Shown here: piece after piece, positions 34,930 through 62,276 of the stretch
Numbering within the stretch: position 1 is the first letter of the stretch
Layout of the letters: each line of letters opens with the position of its first letter
DNA from: Deltaproteobacteria bacterium
GTDB taxonomy: Bacteria; Myxococcota_A; UBA796; UBA2385
Direction: 5' to 3'
Length of the DNA: 64,000 nucleotides
NCBI GenBank assembly: GCA_018401435.1
Contig: JAGYJW010000005.1
Location: 62,001 to 126,000, forward strand
Notes under the pieces: model-generated
Databases searched by the model: none
What the model saw: the letters and a program-made list of their open reading frames with translations, nothing else
Told to the model about the DNA's origin: nothing
Program-made: the position numbers and the translations under genes

Positions 34930-36060
34930 TCACGGCTGCTCGGCAGGAAGCCTGGGAGTGACGTCGCGGTTCCAATCCCGGTGGAAGGCGACGGTCAGCG
35001 CGTCGATGGCCACCATCGTCGTGTGGAGCTCCAGGCGCCAGGTGGCATCCCATGCCCCGTGCTTCCGGGCGTGAGCAGTGTAGTCTCCCCAGTGCCCGTC
35101 GGCCTTCTGCGAGGCGAGCAGGAAGCCGAGGCCATCGGTGTACGCCGGCAGGTCCACCGCGCGGATGTACCGCAGGCACGACACCAGCTCCGCCACGAGG
35201 TCAGGGTCGTTCCGCTCGATGTACTGATCCACGAGGAGGAGCAGGGCCGGCCGCAAGTACCGCAGCTCGTCCTCGTCGAACGGCTCCACATCCAGGTCGT
35301 CGCCGTAGTCGTATGGAGCGAAGACTTCGTGGGTCAGGTGGTAGACGTCCATCCGATCCATCTCTGCCGGCGGCGCGCGCCGGGCGATGAGGCCATCCTC
35401 CCGGGCGACAGCAAGTGGAAAGGGCTCGGCGAGGCCGAACCAGGCGTAGTAGCGATGAAACACGAGGCGCTGGAACGGTCCCCGCGTGGGCATGTGGTCG
35501 TTCAAGCGATCGTGAGCGCGTGCGATCTCGTGGCGGTAGAGGGTCGTGTCGAGCCCCTGCCGTTCGAGGAGGTAGGCGGCACGCAGGTACGAGGTAGCGT
35601 CCTGCTTGAAGACCGTGTCGTCCACCGTGAGCATGTCGTGGTACTCGGCCGTGCGCGTGACCTCGGCCAGGGAGTCGATATGGGCGAGGATACTCGCCTT
35701 CTCCGCCTCGTCCAGCTCGACGGCGCGGAGCCGTCCCCAGGCGTCGATCAGCTCGGCCAGCTTCTTCTTGCCCTTGATCCCGTGCCGACGCATCTCGGCC
35801 GGATCGGCGCGAAGCGGCTCCAACCAGGCTCGCGCGTTCTTGACGGCCAGGTGGTAGTCGCCCTCGTGGTGGACGAGCCACTCCGCGGTCGCCGAGTGCG
35901 TCGTGGGCGACCAGGCCTCGACACGGGGGCTGCGGGACCAGAGGATCGACGCGCAGACTGCGGTCAGGGTCAGGACGACCAGGCCGGCCCGTGGCCACCG
36001 CCGGGCGAGTCGCCGCCGTGCTGGGCCTTCGTCTCGTTCGCCGACCAGTCGCTGCGTCAC
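34930..36060 (-). CDS. Membrane-anchored helical protein, last gene of the thiol-redox operon
   Basis: 376 residues from a GTG at 36060 that overlaps the stop of the preceding gene (GTGA). A single transmembrane segment (about 20-40, AGLVVLTLTAVCASILW) places the remainder outside the cytoplasm. The body is alpha-helical and ends with LGFLLASQKADGHWGDY and a Trp/His-rich region reminiscent of alpha/alpha toroid (terpenoid-cyclase-like) folds; I do not recognise a family with confidence. It has only two cysteines, so it is not an obvious substrate of the disulfide enzymes. Its function is inferred only from the operon. Confidence 0.75.
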   Translation of the reverse strand: MTQRLVGERDEGPARRRLARRWPRAGLVVLTLTAVCASILWSRSPRVEAWSPTTHSATAEWLVHHEGDYHLAVKNARAWLEPLRADPAEMRRHGIKGKKKLAELIDAWGRLRAVELDEAEKASILAHIDSLAEVTRTAEYHDMLTVDDTVFKQDATSYLRAAYLLERQGLDTTLYRHEIARAHDRLNDHMPTRGPFQRLVFHRYYAWFGLAEPFPLAVAREDGLIARRAPPAEMDRMDVYHLTHEVFAPYDYGDDLDVEPFDEDELRYLRPALLLLVDQYIERNDPDLVAELVSCLRYIRAVDLPAYTDGLGFLLASQKADGHWGDYTAHARKHGAWDATWRLELHTTMVAIDALTVAFHRDWNRDVTPRLPAEQP

Positions 36061-37034
36061 AGCGGAACGAGGCGCGCCGGCTGACCGGCGATGAACGCCG
36101 CCGGACCCTCGGGGGTCGTCACGAAGACGGCGTTTCCCTTCGCCACGCCGAGGTCGAAGTCCACCCATCCCGCGATGTCCCTTCGGAGCAGATGCACACG
36201 AGCGGGCCCGCTCACGAGGATGTCGGTTCCCGACACCGAGAAGTCCGATGCCGTGTAGTCCTGCGCGAAGTGAGCGATCAGGCTGCCGCGGAGGAAGTCA
36301 GGTCCACGGAGCAGCAGCAGGCGGCCGTCGGCGACTTGGCCGTAGTTCTGGTGCCATCCATCCGCGACGATGAGGTCCTGCGTTCCGTCCTCGTCGAGGT
36401 CGGCCACGCCGAGTCCGCGGACGCCCCGAAGCGTCGGGAGCACCGTGCCCGAGGGCTGAAGCCGCAGATCTCCATTGGACAGCGGCTTGTCGCCGTAGAC
36501 CCGCCCGACCGCCACCTGTGAGCCGATCGGAAGCTGCGCTTCGGCCATGCGGCCACTGGACACCACCTCCAGTCGTCCCTCCGAGAGCCACCCCGCCTCC
36601 ACGGTGCGATCATCCGCGTACACCGCTATCCAGACCCTCCCGTCGATCACGGCAAGAGTGGGCACCTGGGCGCGGGGGGTTGCCCGCTCGTACAACAGCG
36701 TGGCTCCGAGCTCCGAGATCGCCCAGACCCTCGCCGGCGCGTCCCTGTCGTCGCGGCTGCTGCCTGTCGCGATCAGGGCCGTATCGCGTCCCCCGATGCG
36801 GCCCCTCGCGGCACGTTGCGGTGAGCCACCGAGGTCCCAGGTCAAGGTCGACCATCGCGCGGTGGACCCGACGACGCGGACGAGCTCGTCGATGCCGTCT
36901 CCGTCCACATCAGCGGCCGCGACGAGGTCCGCATCTTCGAGCAGGACGGCTTCGCCAGGAGACTGCGCTCCTGGCGTCGGCGTCGGCGTCGGCTCGCTGC
37001 ACGCCGCGGCCAGCCACCAGGCAGCCCCGATCAC
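36057..37034 (-). CDS. FG-GAP/VCBS-type repeat lipoprotein of the thiol-redox operon
   Basis: 325 residues from a GTG at 37034 overlapping the upstream stop (GTGA). A short lipoprotein signal, WWLAAAC, is followed by Thr-Pro repeats. Beta-propeller-type repeats with calcium loops follow: VAAADVDGDGIDELVRVV and LGVADLDEDGTQDLIVADGW. Such propellers bind ligands or partner proteins at the outer surface. Besides the lipid-modified Cys there is no other cysteine, so it would not itself need oxidation. Strict overlap with both neighbours argues that it is made with them. Confidence 0.8.
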   Translation of the reverse strand: MIGAAWWLAAACSEPTPTPTPGAQSPGEAVLLEDADLVAAADVDGDGIDELVRVVGSTARWSTLTWDLGGSPQRAARGRIGGRDTALIATGSSRDDRDAPARVWAISELGATLLYERATPRAQVPTLAVIDGRVWIAVYADDRTVEAGWLSEGRLEVVSSGRMAEAQLPIGSQVAVGRVYGDKPLSNGDLRLQPSGTVLPTLRGVRGLGVADLDEDGTQDLIVADGWHQNYGQVADGRLLLLRGPDFLRGSLIAHFAQDYTASDFSVSGTDILVSGPARVHLLRRDIAGWVDFDLGVAKGNAVFVTTPEGPAAFIAGQPARLVPL

Positions 37035-39265
37035 CGCAGGATCTCCTCGGCCGCGACCTCCAGGGCGCGCTGCTTCGACTCGTCGTAGCCCTCCGTCCTC
37101 CGCCGGATCACGCCGTCCCTCCCGATCCACCACGTCGACGGCACCGGGCCGGCGTCGAAGCGCGCCATCAAGACACGGGACGGATCGAGCCCGATCGGGA
37201 AGGACACGGCGACGGACTCCAGGAACGAGCGAGCCCGAGGAAGCTGCTCGTCGACGTTGATCCCAACCACCAGCAGCTCCGGGTGCGCGTCGGCGAGCGC
37301 CTGGAGCGCGGGCATCTCCTTGCGGCACGGCCCGCACCAGCTCGCCCAGAACGTCAGGATCGCGGGCCTGCCCCGGAGGTCCGCGCGGGTGAGCCGTCCG
37401 CCGTCGAGGGTCTCGACCTCGAAGTCCAGCAGCACATCGCCCACCTTGCCGCCGGGGTGATGGTCGACCACCTCCGGCGCCGGACCTCGGCAGCATCGGT
37501 ACCCGGTGGCGTCGTCGGCGTCGAAGGGGCTGACGTCCTTCTTGAAGTACCCGCAGCGCGCGGATTCACCCGAGAAGTAGCTCCCGCCCTTCAGCCCGGC
37601 CGTGCCAGCGGTGAGCCCCACCCACTCCTTGGTCAAGCCCTCCAGGTCGTAGACCCCGGACGCAGAGACACAGCGCGGATGGTCGCCCGTCCGAAGCTCC
37701 CCCGGCTCGTCAGGATTGCGCTCCGTGACGCACCATCCGGGCTGCCGCCATCGGCCGTAGGGGTGGGGGTTGCCCGAGAGGTCGTCGCTGAAGTCGCCGT
37801 CTCCGTCCTCGTCCCGGGCCACCTCACCGGTGCAGGCCGTCAGCCACTCCCCCTCGGTGCACAGCCGCATCCCCCGGCTCTGGCACGCCTCGGAGGCCTG
37901 GTACCAGGTGACACCCCGCGCCGGCTCCACACCGGGTCTGGGGACGCCCGCTGCAGGGGCCTCGAAGGCATCGATCGTGAACTCGCCGTGGGGACCGTCG
38001 AGGGTCACGCTGGCGGGAGCGGAGACCTCACCTGTCACCTCCCCGCGCAGCTCCACGTCGAGGAGGATGCGCTCCGTTCCGGTCGCCGCCTTCAGCGCGT
38101 CGACGACCGCTACCAGCGCCTCCGCGGGCTGGGCACCGGACAGCTTGCGCCCGTTGACGAAGGAGTTCGGCGTACCCGTCACGCCGAGGGAAGCCGCCAC
38201 CTCGGTGTCCTTCGAGACCTTGGCCCGGGTCTCCGGATCCGAGAGGCACGCGCGGAAGGCGGTGAGGTCCAGGCCGACCTCGGCCGCGTAGCCGTCGATC
38301 TCGGTGTCCGAGAGCCGCGCCGAGTGCTCGAAGAGCGCGTCGTGCATCTCCCAGAATCGGCCCTGCCGATGCGCGCAGACCGCGGCCCAGGCGGCCGCGC
38401 ACGCCCTGGGGTGCATGTCCTTCTTGATGCCGGTGGCGTTGCACTCCGAGTGCATGGGGAAGTGGTACCAGGCGACCCGGACGTCACCCGGTCGTTCGGC
38501 CAGGAGGGCCTCGACGCTCCCGGCGAGCTTCCGGCAGTAGGGGCACTGGAAGTCCTCGAACAGTACGAGGGTGACGGGTGCCGTGGCCGGTCCCCGGGTG
38601 GGGACGTCGGGTCCGATCGGGATGTCGCCGCCGACGTGGTTCAACACCACCCGCTTCGTCTCGCCCGTCCGGCTGGCTTCGACACCGACAGGGGCGACCT
38701 CGGGATGGACGCCGACGGCCTCCAGGGCCTCGGCCACGGCCTGGTCCGCGTTCGGCTGGGGCGCTGGCCAGGCCAGGGCGATGGCGAGCGTCCCCGCGGC
38801 GACCACCGGGAGGAGCAGGGCATCGGCCGGTGCCGGACGAGGCCGGCGCAGAGCGGCAGGTGCCAGGGCGACTCCGAGGACGAGCACCAAGATGTTGAGG
38901 CCGTCCATCACGAGGCAGTACCGGCACACCTGGCCGACGCTCACCAGCATGTGGTAGAGCAGCCAGCCACCCAGCACGAGCCCCAGGCCGCCGGCCAACG
39001 CGGCGAGCAGAGCGACGCGCTCGCGGGGCAGCACGAGCGCCGCGACCGCGAGGAACAGGTACATCGGGACGGCGGGGGCGCTGACCGGCACCCCTACGAG
39101 TGTCGACCAGTCGCTCGCCAGGACCGCGCCGCATCCTCCCTCCGGACCGCAGAGCAGGCCGGGCTGCAGCGTCTCGGCCACGGCGTCGTGGTGCAGACCG
39201 ACCAAGTAGAGCGCCCACCCTGCGGCCAGGAGACAGACGACGACAAAGGCGGTGCGCAGCTTCAC
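37031..39265 (-). CDS. Four-module VKOR-DsbA-SUMF1-TlpA fusion protein
   Basis: 744 residues from a GTG at 39265 (GTGA overlap). Residues 1-165 are a VKOR domain with its loop cysteines 39/45 and quinone-side CRYC at 114-117. Residues 205-400 are a DsbA-like thioredoxin with CPYC at 241-244 and a cis-Pro in TGTPNS. Residues 405-592 are a SUMF1/formylglycine-enzyme-like domain (VTWYQASEACQSRGMRLCTE, GYRCC) lacking the FGE active-site cysteine pair. Residues 600-744 are TlpA-like with WCGPC at 643-647. VKOR would reoxidise DsbA using quinone; TlpA may reduce or accept electrons. All soluble modules face the periplasm. I know of no standard protein with this order. Confidence 0.88.
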   Translation of the reverse strand: MKLRTAFVVVCLLAAGWALYLVGLHHDAVAETLQPGLLCGPEGGCGAVLASDWSTLVGVPVSAPAVPMYLFLAVAALVLPRERVALLAALAGGLGLVLGGWLLYHMLVSVGQVCRYCLVMDGLNILVLVLGVALAPAALRRPRPAPADALLLPVVAAGTLAIALAWPAPQPNADQAVAEALEAVGVHPEVAPVGVEASRTGETKRVVLNHVGGDIPIGPDVPTRGPATAPVTLVLFEDFQCPYCRKLAGSVEALLAERPGDVRVAWYHFPMHSECNATGIKKDMHPRACAAAWAAVCAHRQGRFWEMHDALFEHSARLSDTEIDGYAAEVGLDLTAFRACLSDPETRAKVSKDTEVAASLGVTGTPNSFVNGRKLSGAQPAEALVAVVDALKAATGTERILLDVELRGEVTGEVSAPASVTLDGPHGEFTIDAFEAPAAGVPRPGVEPARGVTWYQASEACQSRGMRLCTEGEWLTACTGEVARDEDGDGDFSDDLSGNPHPYGRWRQPGWCVTERNPDEPGELRTGDHPRCVSASGVYDLEGLTKEWVGLTAGTAGLKGGSYFSGESARCGYFKKDVSPFDADDATGYRCCRGPAPEVVDHHPGGKVGDVLLDFEVETLDGGRLTRADLRGRPAILTFWASWCGPCRKEMPALQALADAHPELLVVGINVDEQLPRARSFLESVAVSFPIGLDPSRVLMARFDAGPVPSTWWIGRDGVIRRRTEGYDESKQRALEVAAEEILR

Positions 39266-39903
39266 CGCAGCGCCCGCGTCGCCTGGCGCGGCATCAGGGC
39301 CCTCACGTCATCGCCGAAGCCCTGGTCCTGGCCGGTGATCGTGCCGCCGCCGTCCACGAAGTAGTAGCGCGGGACGGAGCTGCCGCCGCCAATCCAGGTG
39401 GCTACGGCCGCCTCGTCGGCGACGAGGACTGGGCCCGTGATCCCGGTCTGCCTGACCTTGCGCAGCTCCGCCTGCCGCCCCGCGTCCCGGTCGTCGACCA
39501 CCACGTCGACCACCTCGAGGGTAGGGTGTTCCCGCTCCAGCTCCACCAAGGTGAGCAGGCTCTGCGTGCAGATCCCGCACCATGACGCCATGAACGCCAG
39601 GAGGTGCGCCTCGGGGCAGGTCCCCTCGCCGAGCTGGCTGGAGAGCGACCGGCGCGCCCCCGACTCCAGGTTGGCCAGCTCCAGGGCCGGGGCATCGGTT
39701 CCGGTACGAGGCGTCTCGGCGCCTGGCGCCAGCTGGGCGGCCGACCCGGTCTCACCTTCGCGGCCAGGGCCTTCACCATCACGCTCTTCGGCCTCGTCCT
39801 CGGGGTCGCCGCCGTCGCGCTGGTCGGGGTCGGTTCCGGCGACCTGCTCGCCTTGGTCGCAGGCACCGAGGGCTGCGAGGAGTATCCAAGTCAGCCGCAG
39901 CAT
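39262..39903 (-). CDS. TlpA-like thioredoxin lipoprotein
   Basis: 213 residues. ATG 39903 gives a lipoprotein signal (ILLAALGAC, Cys15), then a 60-residue acidic, Gly/Glu-rich linker, then a TlpA/ResA-type thioredoxin with active site WCGIC at about 108-112 and the PRYYFVDGGG segment where the cis-Pro is expected. The Ile in WCGIC is unusual; TlpA proteins normally have WCxPC, and loss of the Pro usually changes the redox potential. It overlaps the preceding gene by 13 bp and the following one by four. Confidence 0.85.
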   Translation of the reverse strand: MLRLTWILLAALGACDQGEQVAGTDPDQRDGGDPEDEAEERDGEGPGREGETGSAAQLAPGAETPRTGTDAPALELANLESGARRSLSSQLGEGTCPEAHLLAFMASWCGICTQSLLTLVELEREHPTLEVVDVVVDDRDAGRQAELRKVRQTGITGPVLVADEAAVATWIGGGSSVPRYYFVDGGGTITGQDQGFGDDVRALMPRQATRALR

Positions 39904-41714
39904 CGGAATCCCGTGCGCGGGCTCGCGTAGCCCGGTCCGAAGGTGTCGTTTCGCCGGTAGCACCGGGCGTGGTCGTCCGAGGTGTCCCAGGCACCGCCCA
40001 GCAGCACCGCCGACTCCGGCGTGGTCCCCGCCCACTCCTCCAGGTTGCCGGTCAGGTCGTACACCCCGGTAGCCGTCACACAGCCCGGCATCTCACCCGT
40101 GTACACGGGCCGGAAGGCGTCCCCCTCCTTGCCGTCCCAGCACCTGCCCCGCTCGTGGTGGTCGCCGTACGGGTAGGCCGTGCCCTCGACCATGTCGTCG
40201 GCGAACTGCCCGTTGTTGTTGTCGTCGACGGCGCGGGCTCCCTGGCAGGCGCTCACCCACTCCTCCTCGGAGCAGAGCCGTCTCCCTGCCTTCTCGCAGG
40301 CATCCTTCGCCTGGTACCAGCTCACCCGCAACGACGGGATCTCGTGCTTGCCGACGACGGCGGATCCGTCACGGATGGCGGCCTCGAAGGTGTCGATCCG
40401 GAACGAGAGGCCGTCGTGGGCGATCTCGCGGACGAGCGGAACGTCGTCCGCGACGGGCGCGATCTTCGCCGGGCCCTCCCGCAGGGCCTGGGCGGCGAGC
40501 GCGGCTTGCTTGGGATCGGCGCCCAGCGCCCTCTCGATCGCCCGAGCCATCACCTCCGCCGACGATCCCGAGCGGTACAGCTTGCCGTCGATGTAGATGC
40601 GCGGCGTGCCGTGGATGTCGAGGCCCTTCCCGACCTGCGCGTCGTGGCGGACGGCCTCCAGGGAGCCCGGGGAGGCCATGCACGCGTCGAAGCGCCCCAG
40701 GTCGGCGCCCGCCGTCTCCGCGTAGGTCCGGAGGTACTCCGCCCCGAGCTGGTGCTGGTTCTTGTACGCGAGGTCGTGGAAGGCCCAGAACAGGCCCTGC
40801 TCCTTGGCACACACGGCGCCCCGCGAGGCATTGCAGGCCTCCCGGTGCTTGCGGTTCTTGACGCCCGGGTTGCATGCCGGGTCCATCGGGAAGTGCTTGA
40901 AGACGAACAAGACGCGGTCGCCGTAGGTGGCCTCCAGGCGGGCCAGCTCCGACGCCATGCGCTTGCAGTACCCGCACTCCAGGTCGCCGAACTCGACGAC
41001 GGCCACCGTGGCCTCCGGGTTTCCGATCCAGGCATCGTCCGGATCCAGGGAGAAGCTCGCTTCGTTGTCGTCCTCGGTCTTCACGGTGAACTGCAGGAGG
41101 GGGGCCTCGCCGGCGGGGTCCTTGCGGACACCTTCGTTGGCGTCGGCGATCTCGACCCGTTCGTGGCCGAGCAGCGTAGAGCGATAGAGCCGCTCGCCCC
41201 CCGCCGCGACCAGGAGCAGTCCGACGTGCACGATCCCGGCCAGCAGCACCGCGTTCCGGTCCGGCACCCGCGGCCGACCTCCGAGCAGGCCGAGCACGAG
41301 GATTCCGGCATTCACGGCGTAGAGCCGCATGCACCACGCGCAGACGAAGCCCAGCTCCGTCTTGGACACGTAGAACAGGAAGGCCGAGTACAGCACCGCG
41401 AAGCCGCCGGCCAGCACCACCAGGGCCCTCGCGCCGGGCCGGTCGCGGAGTGCCTGCAGCGCGAGCACGAGCACGGTCAGGTAGAAGGCGATGGCGAGGG
41501 TCGCGATGGGGACGCCGAGAAGCTCGCTGTGGGCGCTGGTGTTGACGATGTCGCAGTTGACCTCGGCGGACTCGACGCAGCCGATGAGCTCGCCCTGCCC
41601 CGTGCCGTAGAGCTGGTTGTCGTGGTGCCAGGTCATCAGCCCACCCACGAACACGCCGAACAGGGTGAGCGGGACGAGCAGCCAGAGGCCGACCGGGCGG
41701 AGTCGCTCCTTCAT
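39891..41714 (-). CDS. VKOR-DsbA-SUMF1 fusion protein
   Basis: 607 residues from ATG 41714, which overlaps the stop of the first operon gene (ATGA). VKOR domain: loop cysteines 46/54, and CAWC at 125-128 in the quinone-side helix. DsbA-like domain: CGYC at 247-250 and a FVFKHFPMDPACNPG segment shared with its paralogue. SUMF1-like domain at the C-terminus: LRVSWYQAKDACEKAGRRLC, GVYDLTGNLEEW and the end GFRCC. It is a paralogue of the 744-residue protein without the TlpA module, so the two probably arose by duplication. It lacks the FGE catalytic cysteines as well. Confidence 0.88.
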   Translation of the reverse strand: MKERLRPVGLWLLVPLTLFGVFVGGLMTWHHDNQLYGTGQGELIGCVESAEVNCDIVNTSAHSELLGVPIATLAIAFYLTVLVLALQALRDRPGARALVVLAGGFAVLYSAFLFYVSKTELGFVCAWCMRLYAVNAGILVLGLLGGRPRVPDRNAVLLAGIVHVGLLLVAAGGERLYRSTLLGHERVEIADANEGVRKDPAGEAPLLQFTVKTEDDNEASFSLDPDDAWIGNPEATVAVVEFGDLECGYCKRMASELARLEATYGDRVLFVFKHFPMDPACNPGVKNRKHREACNASRGAVCAKEQGLFWAFHDLAYKNQHQLGAEYLRTYAETAGADLGRFDACMASPGSLEAVRHDAQVGKGLDIHGTPRIYIDGKLYRSGSSAEVMARAIERALGADPKQAALAAQALREGPAKIAPVADDVPLVREIAHDGLSFRIDTFEAAIRDGSAVVGKHEIPSLRVSWYQAKDACEKAGRRLCSEEEWVSACQGARAVDDNNNGQFADDMVEGTAYPYGDHHERGRCWDGKEGDAFRPVYTGEMPGCVTATGVYDLTGNLEEWAGTTPESAVLLGGAWDTSDDHARCYRRNDTFGPGYASPRTGFRCCG

Positions 41715-42208
41715 CGCAGCGCTCCGTACGCCGCGTCCAGCTCCGTGAAGCCCCGCTCCCGGCTGTAGCCGGTGTGCTGCCACGCGAGGCTGCCCTCCCC
41801 GTCGAAGAGGAACATCGTGGGCATCGAGATCACTCCGTACCGCCCGAGGTGGCGGGCCTCCGGATCGAAGGCGACCGGCAGGTCGAAGGCGACGCTCTTC
41901 ATGAAGCGCTCGGCGTCGGCCCGCTGCTTGTCCACGCTCACGGCGTAGATCGCCACGTCGGGGTGCGCCGAGCCCCACTCGGAGAGCGCTGGCAGCTCCA
42001 GGCGGCAGGGTCCGCACCAGCTCGCCCAGAACGCCAGCAGGACGGGGCGGCCGGCATGCTCGGACAGCCGGAAGGTACCCCCGTCCCGCAGGGGAATCTC
42101 GACGTCGGTGGCGTGCTCGTCAAGGCCGGCAGACTTCGCGGCCTCGAAGACCTCGACGGGGATCATCTCGGGGGCGGCCAGAGCGGTGGCGGTGAACAGG
42201 ATCCACAT
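41711..42208 (-). CDS. TlpA-like periplasmic thioredoxin, first gene of the thiol-redox operon
   Basis: 165 residues with a very short export signal (MWILFTATALAAP) lacking positive charges, then a TlpA fold: LLAFWASWCGPCRLELPALS with WCGPC at 64-68, and GVISMPTMFLF containing the cis-Pro. The sigma-54 element at 42222-42236 predicts transcription starting at about 42210, which leaves almost no leader before ATG 42208. Either the mRNA is leaderless or the real start is a downstream Met (residue 15), which would remove the signal. Divergent from the histidine kinase gene. Confidence 0.85.
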   Translation of the reverse strand: MWILFTATALAAPEMIPVEVFEAAKSAGLDEHATDVEIPLRDGGTFRLSEHAGRPVLLAFWASWCGPCRLELPALSEWGSAHPDVAIYAVSVDKQRADAERFMKSVAFDLPVAFDPEARHLGRYGVISMPTMFLFDGEGSLAWQHTGYSRERGFTELDAAYGALR

Positions 42209-42221
42209 GTCCAGTCCCCAA

Positions 42222-42236
42222 GCAAGATGCGTGCCG
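42222..42236 (-). promoter_or_regulatory. Sigma-54 promoter of the thiol-redox operon
   Basis: Minus strand from 42236: CGGCACGCATCTTGCTTGG. It matches GGCACG-N4-TTGC at every fixed position except the first T of TGGCAC. It lies in the interval divergent from genes for a histidine kinase and an NtrC-type sigma-54 activator, which makes that pair the natural regulator of the six-gene operon. Confidence 0.85.
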
Positions 42237-42246
42237 CCTGGGAAGC

Positions 42247-42283
42247 GGCATGCCTGCGAGAGCGTGAGTAGGTCCATGTACAT
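42247..42283. promoter_or_regulatory. Two short palindromes upstream of the sigma-54 promoter
   Basis: GGCATGCC (42247-42254) and ATGTACAT (42276-42283) are perfect 8-bp palindromes within 60 bp of the -24 element. They are closer to the promoter than typical enhancer sites but could bind the divergently encoded activator. Short palindromes like these also occur by chance. Confidence 0.3.
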
Positions 42284-42313
42284 TCCTGCCACAGTGCTGT
42301 ACCTTGTGTGCTC

Positions 42314-43756
42314 ATGCGCCTCTCCCTCCGAATGACCGCCAGCCTCGCGATGACCGGCCTCTTTACCTTCGGGTCCTTCGGCGCGTGGCTGGTCGTCCGC
42401 GAACAGCGCGATCTTCGCGTTGCGGCCGAGCGCGAGATGGCGTTCCTGGGAACCAGCCTTCGGGTCGGCGTGGAGAACGCCATGCGGGACCGCCAGGTCG
42501 CCGATGTCGACGAGGCTGCGCTGCGACTGGAGGGTGTGGACACCTGGCTGGACGTCTGGGTGCACGACGCCGACGGGGCCGTCGTGTCGGCGCCCGGGGG
42601 CCTGCCCGTTGGCGCGCTGGAGGGCGCGCTGCACGACCTCGCCGCGAGCGCGGCCGAGGCGTCGGCTCCGCGGCTGTTGTGGTGGCCGGAGGAGGCTCCG
42701 ACGGCGCTCCTGGTGGTCACTCCGCTCATGACGGACGATGGGGACCTGATCGGGACGCTGGGCTTGCGGCGCCCCGTCGACGACCTCGACCGCGACCTGC
42801 GCTGGACGGCCGGCGCGGCGCTGATGGTGGTCGGCGTGTTCGTGCTGATGTCCTCGGTGCTGGGCCTCGCGATCGGCGAGGTGCGACTGGGCAGGCCGCT
42901 GCGGGAGCTGACGGCGGCCATGCGTGGGCTGCGGCTGGAGGGGGCGACCGGGACGCTGGACGAGGGGGGAGACGACGAGCCGAGGGAGATCGCCACCGAG
43001 TTCAACCGGATGGTCCTCGACCTTCGCTCCGAGCGTGCAAGGGCCGACGCGGAGGCGGCCGCGAGGCGTGAGGCCTTGAACCAGCTCTTCGCGGCCGATC
43101 GCCTCGCTTCGGTAGGCCAGCTCGCGGCGGCTCTCGCGCACGAGGTCGGATCCCCGTTGCAGGTGCTCCACGGCCGGGCACGGGCCCTCGAGGTCGACGC
43201 GGAGGACTCAGACCGCACCCGGCGGCACGCGGCGGTGCTCGTGCGCGAGACCGAGCGCATCGCCCGGATCGTCGAACGGCTCCTGTCGCTCACGCGCCGC
43301 TGCGACGACGAGCCGCGGGGTGTGGACCTGCTGGAGGTGGTCGCCCGCGTGGTGGAGCTGGTGGAGGTCGATGCGCGCCGCGACGCCATCGAGCTGCGGG
43401 TCACCGGCGCCGCCCCCCCGGTCGTCGCCAGGGCAGACCGCCTGGAGCAGGTCGTCCTCAACCTCTTGCTGAACGCCATGGCGGCGTCCAGGCCGGGCGG
43501 GCGCATCGGTGTGCGGGTCGAGGGCGGACCGGGAGAAGCGCGCCTCGTCGTCGAGGACGACGGCCGTGGGATGACCCCCGAGGTGGCCGACCGCTGCTTC
43601 GAGCCCCTGTTCACGGCGACACCGGGCGGCACCGGGCTCGGGCTCGCCGTCGTCCGGAGCATCGTCGAGGAGCACGGCGGTCGGGTGAGCTGCACCTCGG
43701 AAGCCGGCAAGGGGGCACGCTTCGTCGTGTCCCTTCCGGCCGGCGAGGCGACCTGA
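42314..43756 (+). CDS. Membrane sensor histidine kinase of the thiol-redox island
   Basis: 480 residues from ATG 42314 (a GTG at 42308 is an alternative). Two transmembrane helices (about 8-28 and 166-188) enclose a 135-residue periplasmic sensor without cysteines, so it does not sense redox by its own thiols. A HAMP-like linker is followed by the H box with His276 (LAHEVGSPL), the N box NLLLNAMAAS, DDGRGM and GGTGLGLAVV. It is an NtrB-type kinase for a sigma-54 activator; the downstream regulator gene starts inside its stop codon (TGATG), so the two are translated together. Confidence 0.92.
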   Translation: MRLSLRMTASLAMTGLFTFGSFGAWLVVREQRDLRVAAEREMAFLGTSLRVGVENAMRDRQVADVDEAALRLEGVDTWLDVWVHDADGAVVSAPGGLPVGALEGALHDLAASAAEASAPRLLWWPEEAPTALLVVTPLMTDDGDLIGTLGLRRPVDDLDRDLRWTAGAALMVVGVFVLMSSVLGLAIGEVRLGRPLRELTAAMRGLRLEGATGTLDEGGDDEPREIATEFNRMVLDLRSERARADAEAAARREALNQLFAADRLASVGQLAAALAHEVGSPLQVLHGRARALEVDAEDSDRTRRHAAVLVRETERIARIVERLLSLTRRCDDEPRGVDLLEVVARVVELVEVDARRDAIELRVTGAAPPVVARADRLEQVVLNLLLNAMAASRPGGRIGVRVEGGPGEARLVVEDDGRGMTPEVADRCFEPLFTATPGGTGLGLAVVRSIVEEHGGRVSCTSEAGKGARFVVSLPAGEAT

Positions 43757-45099
43757 TGGCGCGGATCTTCGTCGTGGACGACCATCCCGCCGTGGTCGAA
43801 TGGCTCACGGACGAGCTGGCCAACGAGGGCTACGAGGTCGAAGGCTGCGCCACACCGGCGGAGGCCCCGTCACGTATCCTCGCGGGCGCCTTCGACCTCG
43901 TCGTCGCCGATGTCGAGATGCCAGGACTGCGGGGGCTCGACCTGATGTCCATCGTCCACCGCGAGCGCCCCGACCAGCTCGTGATGCTGATCACCGCCTT
44001 CGGTTCCATCGACCTGGCCGTCCAGGCGCTGCGCGCCGGGGCCTGCGACTTCGTGACCAAGCCCTTCGCCATCGAGACCCTGGTGCTCGCCGTGGAGCAG
44101 GCGCTGCACGATCGCCGGATGCGGAAGGAGGTCGTGCGGGTGCTCCGCCCGTCCCGGTCCGTGGCCACCGAGGGGCTGGTCGCCCGGAGCGAGGCGATGC
44201 GGCGGGTTCTGGACCGCGCGGTCCGGGCTGCCCGGACTCGGGCTCCGGTGCTCCTGACCGGCGAGACGGGCGTGGGAAAGGGCACGATCGCGCGCTTCCT
44301 CCACGCCCGCAGCGATCGCCGGAACGCCCCCTTCGTCCAGCTCAACTGCGCCGCACTTCCGCAGGCGCTGGTCGAGGCCGAGCTGTTCGGCGTGCGACGC
44401 GGAGCCTTCACCGACGCGAGATCCGACCGCGAAGGGCTGTTCGACCGCGCGAGAGGTGGGACGATCCTGCTCGACGAGATCGGAGAGCTGCCCCTGGAGG
44501 CCCAACCCAAGCTGCTCCTGACCCTGGAGAGCGGACGGGTCCGTCCGGTGGGAGACGCGCGGGATCACACGGTGGACGTGCGGGTCGTCGCCGCGACCAA
44601 CCGACCGCTGGAGGAGGCCGTACGCGAGCGGCTGTTCCGCGCGGACCTGCTCTACCGCCTCGACGTGATTCGCATCGACATCCCGCCCCTACGCGAACGC
44701 CCCGACGACGTCGAGGGCCTCGTGGCCGCGCTCTTGGACCAGCTCTCGGCGCGCCACGGCCGCAGCGTCACGACCGTGACCGAGGAGGCGATGCGCTGGC
44801 TCGTGGCCCAGCCCTGGCCTGGCAACGTCCGGGAGCTGTCGAACGTGCTGGAGCGGGCGGTTGCCCTGGGCGAGCACGACGCGCTCACCCTGGCGGACGT
44901 CGCCGAGCCCCGCCCGACGGCGGCGGACGGTCCCCCGGAGAGCCTCGACGAGGCGGTGGCGACCGGGCTCCCGCTGGAGGACCTCCAGCGGACCTACATG
45001 CGCAAGGTCCTCGATGCCTGCGGGGGGAACATGTCGGAGGCGGCGCGCAGGCTCGGGGTGGATCGGCGGACGCTGTACCGTTGGATGGCGGAGCCGTAG
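43756..45099 (+). CDS. NtrC-family sigma-54 response regulator with variant GAFTDA loop
   Basis: 447 residues. Receiver domain 1-120 with phosphoacceptor Asp52 (VVADVEMPG). AAA+ domain 140-375: Walker A GETGVGKG at 169-176, the sigma-54 contact loop GAFTDA at 216-221 instead of the canonical GAFTGA, Walker B ILLDEIGELP, and the arginine-finger region LFRADLLYRLDV. A C-terminal Fis-type helix-turn-helix lies at about 420-445 (GGNMSEAARRLGVDRRTLYRW). A Gly to Asp change in the loop is found in some natural activators, but it can weaken sigma-54 contact. Likely target: the promoter at 42222-42236. Confidence 0.93.
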   Translation: MARIFVVDDHPAVVEWLTDELANEGYEVEGCATPAEAPSRILAGAFDLVVADVEMPGLRGLDLMSIVHRERPDQLVMLITAFGSIDLAVQALRAGACDFVTKPFAIETLVLAVEQALHDRRMRKEVVRVLRPSRSVATEGLVARSEAMRRVLDRAVRAARTRAPVLLTGETGVGKGTIARFLHARSDRRNAPFVQLNCAALPQALVEAELFGVRRGAFTDARSDREGLFDRARGGTILLDEIGELPLEAQPKLLLTLESGRVRPVGDARDHTVDVRVVAATNRPLEEAVRERLFRADLLYRLDVIRIDIPPLRERPDDVEGLVAALLDQLSARHGRSVTTVTEEAMRWLVAQPWPGNVRELSNVLERAVALGEHDALTLADVAEPRPTAADGPPESLDEAVATGLPLEDLQRTYMRKVLDACGGNMSEAARRLGVDRRTLYRWMAEP

Positions 45100-61407: not shown

Positions 61408-62276
61408 CCAGCCCAGGGCGCCCCCCTCAGCCGGTCCAGGACCAGCGCGGGCGTGAGGGCCTCCATGCAGTGGTGGTCGCCCATGGGGCAGCGGGGGCTG
61501 CCATGGCGGCTGCAGGGGCGACAGGGCAGGTCCAGCTCGACGACCGCGCCGGCGTGGCACCAGAAGCCATCGGCCGAGGTGGTCGGCCCGAAGAGCCCGA
61601 GCACCGGGATGCCCGCCGCCGCGCAGAGGTGCAGCAGGCCGGTGTCGCCGCCGATGGCCAGCCGACCCCGTCCCAAGGCGGCCAGGGTGGCGTCAAAGCC
61701 CGCTTCGGCGATGGCCTCGGCACCTGGACCGATCCCCTCGGCGATCTGGCCCACCAGCACTTCATCTTCGGGGCCTCCCAGCACCAGGATCGGGCCCGGT
61801 AGCGCCCGCCCCAAGGCGATGAAGGAGGCCGCCGGCCAGCGCTTGGTGGCCCAGGCCGCCCCCGGCAGCAGCAAGGTGGCGTCGCGGGGGCCCTCCACGT
61901 GAATCCAGGGGGCGGGCGCCACAGGAACCCCCGCCGCCTGGGCGTAGCGCGCCACCACCTTGGCGGGCGGCGCCCCCACCTTGAACCAGACCCGCAGGCG
62001 CCGCCGCAGATCGGCGCGCTGCACATGGGAGACAGACGCGCCATGGCCCAAGCTGAGCCAGCGCCCGCGCAGATCCCCCTGCAGATCGACCACGCGGTCC
62101 ACTGGCGGCACCGCGTCCCGGCCCAGCACCAGCACCCGCTCCACGCCCGGCAGACGGGCGGCAACCGGGGCCCAGGCCGCCTTGGTCAAGAAGAGCACCG
62201 GCGCCAGCGCCCCGGTCACGGCCCCCGCCAGCACCACATCCCCCAAGGAGGAGCAGCGGATGACCAGGGTGCTCAC
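61404..62276 (-). CDS. Glycosyltransferase family 9 (heptosyltransferase-like)
   Basis: 290 residues from a GTG at 62276 in GTGA overlap with the previous gene. Rossmann start STLVIRCSSLGDVVLAGAVT; C-terminal donor site AIGGDTGLLHLCAAAGIPVLGLFGPT, the hallmark of ADP-heptose:LPS heptosyltransferases. A cluster of cysteines (RPCSRHGSPRCPMGDHHC) near the end is shared by this family. Confidence 0.92.
   Translation of the reverse strand: MSTLVIRCSSLGDVVLAGAVTGALAPVLFLTKAAWAPVAARLPGVERVLVLGRDAVPPVDRVVDLQGDLRGRWLSLGHGASVSHVQRADLRRRLRVWFKVGAPPAKVVARYAQAAGVPVAPAPWIHVEGPRDATLLLPGAAWATKRWPAASFIALGRALPGPILVLGGPEDEVLVGQIAEGIGPGAEAIAEAGFDATLAALGRGRLAIGGDTGLLHLCAAAGIPVLGLFGPTTSADGFWCHAGAVVELDLPCRPCSRHGSPRCPMGDHHCMEALTPALVLDRLRGAPWAG

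Follow-up and report, generated by a model that had tools for sequence, protein, structure and literature searches.

The DNA considered here (the window) is a stretch of 64,000 nucleotides from a Deltaproteobacteria bacterium that probably belongs near the myxobacteria, positions 62,001 to 126,000 of contig JAGYJW010000005.1 (C150 in our numbering) in assembly GCA_018401435.1. The window has a GC content of 70.8%, and the host genome, 7.13 Mb in 204 contigs, has a listed completeness of 94.9% and a contamination of 6.25%. The locus of interest is a minus-strand operon of thiol-redox genes, transcribed in the order F, E, D, C, B, A (34930-42208), with a histidine kinase (HK) and response regulator (RR) pair diverging from it (Table 1). 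A preliminary description of this DNA had proposed six overlapping genes and a divergent regulatory pair, and the coordinates confirm both: successive genes overlap by 4, 13, 4, 4 and 4 bases. Pfam agrees with its reading of E and C as two VKOR-DsbA-SUMF1 fusions, C bearing a TlpA domain at its end, and upholds its count of two VKOR and five thioredoxin-fold domains, of which D is the weakest (scores below the cut-off, CxxC intact). The FG-GAP lipoprotein and the membrane-anchored protein that it placed in the operon are recognized as well, the latter now refined to a DUF6895 protein.

Table 1. Features of the redox operon and its regulatory genes (positions in the window)
Feature	Position	Strand	Basis
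F: secreted TlpA/ResA-like thioredoxin, 165 residues, WCGPC, operon gene 1	41711-42208	minus	Pfam AhpC-TSA 3e-19
E: VKOR (5 transmembrane helices, CAWC)-DsbA (CGYC)-SUMF1 fusion, 607 residues	39891-41714	minus	Pfam VKOR 1.2e-18, Thioredoxin_4 1.7e-20, FGE-sulfatase 6.9e-15
D: TlpA-like lipoprotein, 213 residues, CGIC	39262-39903	minus	AhpC-TSA 4.7e-5, below Pfam cut-off
C: VKOR (CRYC)-DsbA (CPYC)-SUMF1-TlpA (CGPC) fusion, 744 residues	37031-39265	minus	Pfam VKOR 5.9e-14, DSBA 1.3e-23, FGE-sulfatase 8.3e-8, AhpC-TSA 1.4e-20
B: FG-GAP lipoprotein, 325 residues	36057-37034	minus	Pfam FG-GAP_3 1.1e-6
A: membrane-anchored DUF6895 protein, 376 residues, all-alpha, GTG start	34930-36060	minus	Pfam DUF6895 2.8e-20
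HK: membrane histidine kinase	42314-43756	plus	Pfam HisKA, HATPase_c
RR: NtrC-type sigma-54 activator	43756-45099	plus	receiver, Sigma54_activat 5e-62, HTH_8
Predicted sigma-54 -24/-12 promoter of the F-A operon, CGGCACGCATCTTGCT	42221-42236	minus	consensus score
Candidate activator-binding site, TGTGGCAGGAATGTAC	42278-42293	minus	best 16-mer common to three HK-RR loci

The catalytic parts of the fusions are well preserved. In E, five hydrophobic stretches are followed by the DsbA part and then by SUMF1, and C has the same order with TlpA added. The VKOR part of E has the features expected of that family: five transmembrane helices (in both an AlphaFold2 (AF2) model and a hydropathy plot), an active CxxC and two loop cysteines. 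Among 24 aligned fusion proteins (L207 is cut by a contig end and L042 has its start as called), the active pair C125/C128 is kept in 23/23 covering rows and the loop pair C46/C54 in 22/22; the rows without coverage are L207 for both pairs and L042 for the loop. E has 18 cysteines, and at each of these positions all rows with coverage have a cysteine too, 14 of the positions being covered by 24/24 rows. Loss of the CxxC motifs in most homologues was named beforehand as something that would argue against a dedicated system; instead, they are kept in all aligned rows covering them. A TP motif with a cis-proline is a hallmark of DsbA-type proteins, and the middle part of E combines a thioredoxin fold (Pfam and Foldseek matches) with a CxxC, C247/C250, and T370-P371, all invariant across the 24 rows; by Foldseek it is structurally nearest to DsbA, BdbD and ScsC. 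The AF2 model of E, a check that the preliminary description had suggested, has five long helices of the VKOR part and then two further domains, DsbA and SUMF1 (mean predicted local distance difference test, pLDDT, 84.7). In VKOR fusions, electrons flow from the partner via VKOR to quinone, and quinone-linked transfer is presumably what the VKOR domains of E and C carry out too.

The third domain is related to the formylglycine-generating enzyme (FGE, SUMF1) and would not act as one. C585 of E aligns with the RC of FGE's RCAARS...GFRC motif, and the preceding 11-12 residues are free of cysteine in 24/24 rows; relative to this motif, no fusion has a cysteine at the places of the two FGE active-site cysteines, which we take to be C336 and C341 of the human enzyme. 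The preliminary description had likewise found these cysteines missing from E and C, and an FGE function of the domain is ruled out on these grounds. Its best match in the PDB is human SUMF2 (1y4j, 1.6e-9), with FGE itself reaching only about 0.02. The domain does have eight invariant cysteines of its own, which suggest, from their conservation in the alignment, a disulfide-braced binding domain. A sulfatase gene follows the C-type fusion in L092; the only cysteine of its product lies in the signal region, so the protein is no client in which a cysteine would be turned into formylglycine.

F and D are exported thioredoxin-fold proteins of the TlpA/ResA kind: F has an apparent signal peptide and D a lipoprotein-like start (both read from the sequence), and WCxxC is kept in 14/14 F and 5/5 D proteins examined, D's Pfam scores being below the cut-off.

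The distribution of these genes was followed in 63 genomes of the order and 377 of the phylum, with a fusion match threshold of 1e-60. Matches at this level or better occur in 21/63 order genomes and in 68/377 phylum genomes; in 59 of the latter the match reaches through DsbA-SUMF1 to the model end, and in 9 it covers VKOR-DsbA only. Among the best 80 of 434 matches in a named sequence collection, the top titles are Myxococcota, Myxococcales, Deltaproteobacteria, Proteobacteria and Pseudomonadota, and weaker ones include Acidobacteria and others. A tree of 24 fusions and one outgroup (L207 and L222 unplaced; L045 and L052-L054 not in the tree) separates E, C and the prs-linked fusions into distinct clades. 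The E clade (support 97/99) includes two class-level relatives, and E-type fusions are present in 14/63 genomes, counted by tree and score together, G045 and G049 by score alone. C-type fusions (support 100/99) are found in 5/63 genomes, with relatives of C in 4. The third clade (support 100/99) comprises L006, L042, L043 and L044.

The neighbourhood of E is conserved. In 12/12 order E-type loci with the upstream side visible, F is the gene next to E on that side (a contig end cuts it off in G045 and G049), and an upstream TlpA gene is present in the class-level relatives L220 and L221 too. All five genomes with a C-type fusion are E-type as well (hypergeometric 2.8e-4). D matches occur in 8/63 genomes, one of which (G031) was dropped as being that genome's F gene; six of the remaining seven are E-type and G021 is not, and in G024 and G025 D and E are on different contigs. 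The hypergeometric value for D, 4.4e-5, is calculated as six of six with G021 excluded. The genomes are related, so these co-occurrence values are guides only. The preliminary description had reasoned that homologues scattered without conserved neighbours would speak against a dedicated system, and had proposed a search for the fusion architecture: the F-E neighbourhood proved to be conserved, but the fusion itself is not rare (59/377). Longer arrangements are fewer. G055 has HK-RR and F-E-D (L084); G060 has HK-RR, F-E and then D with an FG-GAP protein (L087, L088, with E split over two contigs that were not joined); G053 has D-C-B (L091, B 28% identical) and a separate F-E (L085); and in G065 a fusion is followed by a D-like gene (L222, 36%). 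The full six-gene set was found in the window alone, and elsewhere as the pieces F-E, F-E-D, D-C-B and fusion plus A. Its parts recur in other genomes; judged from sequence, the six genes were brought together locally from smaller modules.

The host has three further VKOR loci, so the operon is an addition to other VKOR genes. One fusion of its own lies on contig C24 (L006 8794-11265), a third VKOR-DsbA-SUMF1-TlpA protein whose gene has a uvrA-like gene on one side and prs, rplY and pth on the other. Within the host's family, fusions also stand beside prs in L044, L052 and L053 and beside a uvrA-like gene in L045 and L054. The L006 fusion is perhaps a basal disulfide system.

Matches to HK with a significance of at least 1e-60 occur in 3/63 order genomes (the host, G055 and G060; at most 25 candidates scored in each), each time beside F-E; the matches in G055 and G060 have 55% identity to HK. 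RR shares 68% and 70% identity with its two orthologues, versus 43% (L047) and 45% (L084) for other NtrC-type regulators. RR itself has the AAA+ activator domain expected for sigma-54 control, with the sigma-54 contact loop reading GAFTDA in place of GAFTGA, as in both orthologues, and rpoN is present in the genome. Promoters were scored with a home-made consensus over the 260 bases upstream of F in 14 loci. The site before F in the window reaches 93% of the maximum, a score that 4/127,970 window positions (both strands) reach. The three HK loci score 0.93, 0.93 and 0.95 of maximum (L084 and L088 included), so that a near-consensus site is present in 3/3 loci with HK and 0/11 without, F starts being taken as called, which means that some of these starts may sit farther upstream inside the 260 bases. 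The best upstream score among the 11 is 0.78 (L220), with 0.86 reached within the coding start of L051. The start of F is very near the predicted transcription start, which implies a very short leader; a later start codon is possible. The three HK loci also have TGTGGCA..AATGTAC-like words in common, beginning 57, 92 and 81 bases ahead of that site, with 5 summed mismatches versus a minimum of 8 in 60 shuffles (a letter-shuffle null that does not control for ancestry). In an exact search, the degenerate 15-base core of the TGTGGCAGGAATGTAC site occurs at one place in the 7.1 Mb genome, the operon's own. These observations show, at the level of sequence, that HK-RR is tied to the operon and that a near-consensus sigma-54 promoter precedes F, in line with the divergent kinase, NtrC-type regulator and intervening promoter of the preliminary description. 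The NtrC-type neighbour in L047 was considered as a further RR orthologue and rejected (43% identity, best upstream sigma-54 score 0.77). G055 has one more histidine kinase gene (HisKA, HATPase_c; L084 11654-13087), placed between F and HK-RR.

The remaining operon genes are less firmly connected. B has one cysteine, at its lipid site, and A has two, one of them in the membrane anchor (window proteins), making an internal disulfide unlikely in either. The B family has matches in 17/63 order genomes, mostly one each, and the host has a B paralogue (52%) elsewhere (L218 8607-9644); redox-operon genes are absent beside the B-family genes in L215-L217, L219, L225, L226 and the host's own L218. FG-GAP homologues do follow C in L091 (28%, G053) and D in L087 (31%, G060). 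A belongs to DUF6895 (PF21836) above the gathering score, a family found in 18/377 phylum genomes, 15 of them above the cut-off. Its AF2 model (mean pLDDT 79.8) gave weak alpha/alpha-toroid matches alone (GH76, terpene cyclases; best E 0.04, none at 1e-3 or below). A DUF6895 epimerase is named in a title cited in the references of PMC13352647. A is a DUF6895 protein by family membership, and an epimerase activity would be hypothetical; it is set apart by its membrane anchor and its place in a redox operon. In G234, from another class of the phylum, an A homologue (48%) adjoins a DsbA-SUMF1-TlpA fusion (L207). That segment (L207 4593-7126) reads fusion, DUF6895 gene, then a second DsbA-type membrane protein. 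Of the suggested co-occurrence of B and A with the other genes, then, homologues near C or D (L091, L087) and near a fusion (L207) were found, but in few genomes overall.

Several other genes were seen near the fusions. Cytochrome c' and c genes are directly upstream of F-E in L048 (7609-8882), and in L040 (7844-9079) the C-type fusion is directly preceded by a gene for a five-CXXCH protein. In G055, F-E-D is followed by a gene for a CNNM/CorC family transporter (L084 7108-8409), as D-B is in G060 (L087 3329-4609); the window operon has no CNNM gene. Outside the operon, the host has a DsbD_TM gene on contig C68, a presence that is not specific since 58/63 order genomes have one. Cysteine-rich MopE/FG-GAP proteins (L046, L086, L092) encoded beside or near the fusions were considered as conserved clients, an idea rejected on the lack of enrichment among immediate neighbours in 23 loci described below.

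On balance, the operon is probably an inducible envelope system for forming and proofreading disulfides. An envelope signal would lead HK to phosphorylate RR; RR would then bind the common element, which begins 57-92 bases before the -24/-12 site, and open the promoter. The DsbA domains of E and C would oxidize exported clients and pass the electrons to VKOR within one polypeptide and on to the membrane quinone, while the SUMF1 domain, a catalytically dead FGE relative, would hold or recognize the client. The TlpA domains (F, D and the end of C) would make up a second branch of thiol exchange. Its task would most likely be to reduce or reshuffle incorrect disulfides, with a DsbD/CcdA-type protein encoded elsewhere as the electron source, and B and A would be accessory surface or membrane proteins. 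The earlier idea that these genes form a dedicated thiol-redox system under sigma-54 control of its own gains support from the HK-F-E linkage, the promoter pairing, the retention of CxxC and the co-occurrence of C and D. As for its function, the domain and regulatory setting is supported, and oxidative maturation is what we infer.

A number of observations weigh against this explanation. HK accompanies E in only 3/14 E-type genomes and was not seen in 11, and the upstream word common to three loci may reflect shared ancestry alone. The cysteines of HK (330, 428 and 460) are all in the cytoplasmic kinase part, so thiol sensing is not required. The arrangement of domains in E is uncertain in the model, whose predicted template modelling score (pTM) is 0.58 despite good local confidence. 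B and A are linked to operon partners in few genomes. No client gene conserved across the loci was found, and cysteine-rich genes are not enriched among the immediate neighbours of the fusions (4/41 versus 13/203, p 0.5, in 23 loci; the window, L088, L006-L008, L044, L045, L052-L054, L208-L219 and L223-L226 excluded). The cytochromes c encoded beside L040 and L048 could, by their position, indicate a cytochrome-related role. Finally, the direction of thiol flow is something that we infer.

Other explanations account for some of the same facts. An Scs-like system for copper or metal envelope stress, in which DsbA and TlpA shield or repair metal-damaged thiols and a ZraS-like kinase senses metal or envelope damage, would suit the match of the DsbA domain to ScsC structures and the CNNM/CorC genes of G055 and G060. 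ZraS is also the best NCBIfam model for HK, but it matches the kinase core only (residues 250-476), far below the cut-off; the window operon is without the CNNM gene, and its Pfam hits include no DsbD-like ScsB, metal-binding or efflux domain. This reading is unlikely. An aid to cytochrome c maturation, with DsbA oxidizing and TlpA re-reducing the haem-binding CxxCH cysteines of cytochromes after export, under respiratory control, would explain the genes upstream of F-E in L048 and of the fusion in L040, but these are two loci only of 23 with tabulated neighbours, and CXXCH occurs in 0/51 called window genes and in no called gene of L084, L087 or L088, which leaves it quite unlikely.

A dedicated maturation line for A, B or both, with the fusions folding or modifying the FG-GAP lipoprotein or the DUF6895 protein, draws on their place in the same operon, on the adjoining of a fusion by A's closest homologue found (G234), and on the FG-GAP proteins after C in G053 and after D in G060. 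The scarcity of cysteines in both proteins, and the mostly single-copy B family with its seven examined places devoid of redox-operon genes, make it very unlikely. We give the lowest probability to two further ideas. The genes could be ordinary, duplicated general disulfide-formation genes with an incidental regulator as neighbour: the fusion is widespread, and the host's own copy lies among prs, rplY, pth and uvrA-like genes with similar neighbours across the family, but HK matches occur only beside F-E, sigma-54 sites track HK, and the E, C and prs-linked fusions are separate clades. There is a comparably slim chance that the operon serves switchable surface-protein maturation, with the dead FGE-type domain recognizing clients for a self-contained quinone-linked oxidase and the extracytoplasmic DUF6895 protein adding a second modification (for example epimerization) to the same clients. 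Inducible disulfide formation and proofreading in the envelope is the explanation we retain.

Taken singly, the components are known: VKOR fusions, DsbA, TlpA, pseudo-FGE domains and sigma-54 envelope regulators. Bacterial VKOR-thioredoxin fusions, of the Synechococcus VKOR type, similarly join a VKOR membrane domain to a thioredoxin-fold partner and keep the loop and CxxC cysteines, whereas here the partner is of DsbA type, SUMF1 is added (and TlpA in C), and the operon is linked to a regulator. SUMF2 (pFGE) and FGE match the SUMF1 domain in sequence, SUMF2 best, but the domain here is without the FGE active-site cysteines, has eight conserved cysteines of its own and is fused to VKOR-DsbA. 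ZraS-ZraR are sigma-54 envelope regulators, an NtrC-type pair divergent from an envelope gene; the window's pair has the same layout with a sigma-54 promoter, but its target is a thiol-redox operon, and HK (180.7 of 479 bits) and RR (291.3 of 760) are below the NCBIfam equivalog cut-offs. A DsbD-like ScsB belongs to the cluster in the Scs system and is absent among the operon's Pfam hits. As in ScsABCD of enterobacteria and Caulobacter (PMC8900818, PMC3672137), an ScsC-like DsbA fold and a thioredoxin-family partner share one cluster, but VKOR is built in and control is by sigma-54. In a literature search of titles and abstract starts, with few subscription papers, no description of the fusion and joint operon was found, in keeping with the initial impression that no system of this composition had been described; the words "fusion", "fused", "deltaproteobacteria" and "myxo" are absent from PMC4555120.

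If the favoured explanation is true, this bacterium would form disulfides on demand, through a quinone-linked oxidase that has a DsbA of its own and a pseudo-FGE domain as fused parts. Disulfide formation is mostly regarded as constitutive housekeeping. The oxidase would here be controlled by a private kinase and a sigma-54 promoter, and the pseudo-FGE domain may choose the client. It would then become possible to test in a bacterial setting what enzymatically dead SUMF domains, among them SUMF2, do.

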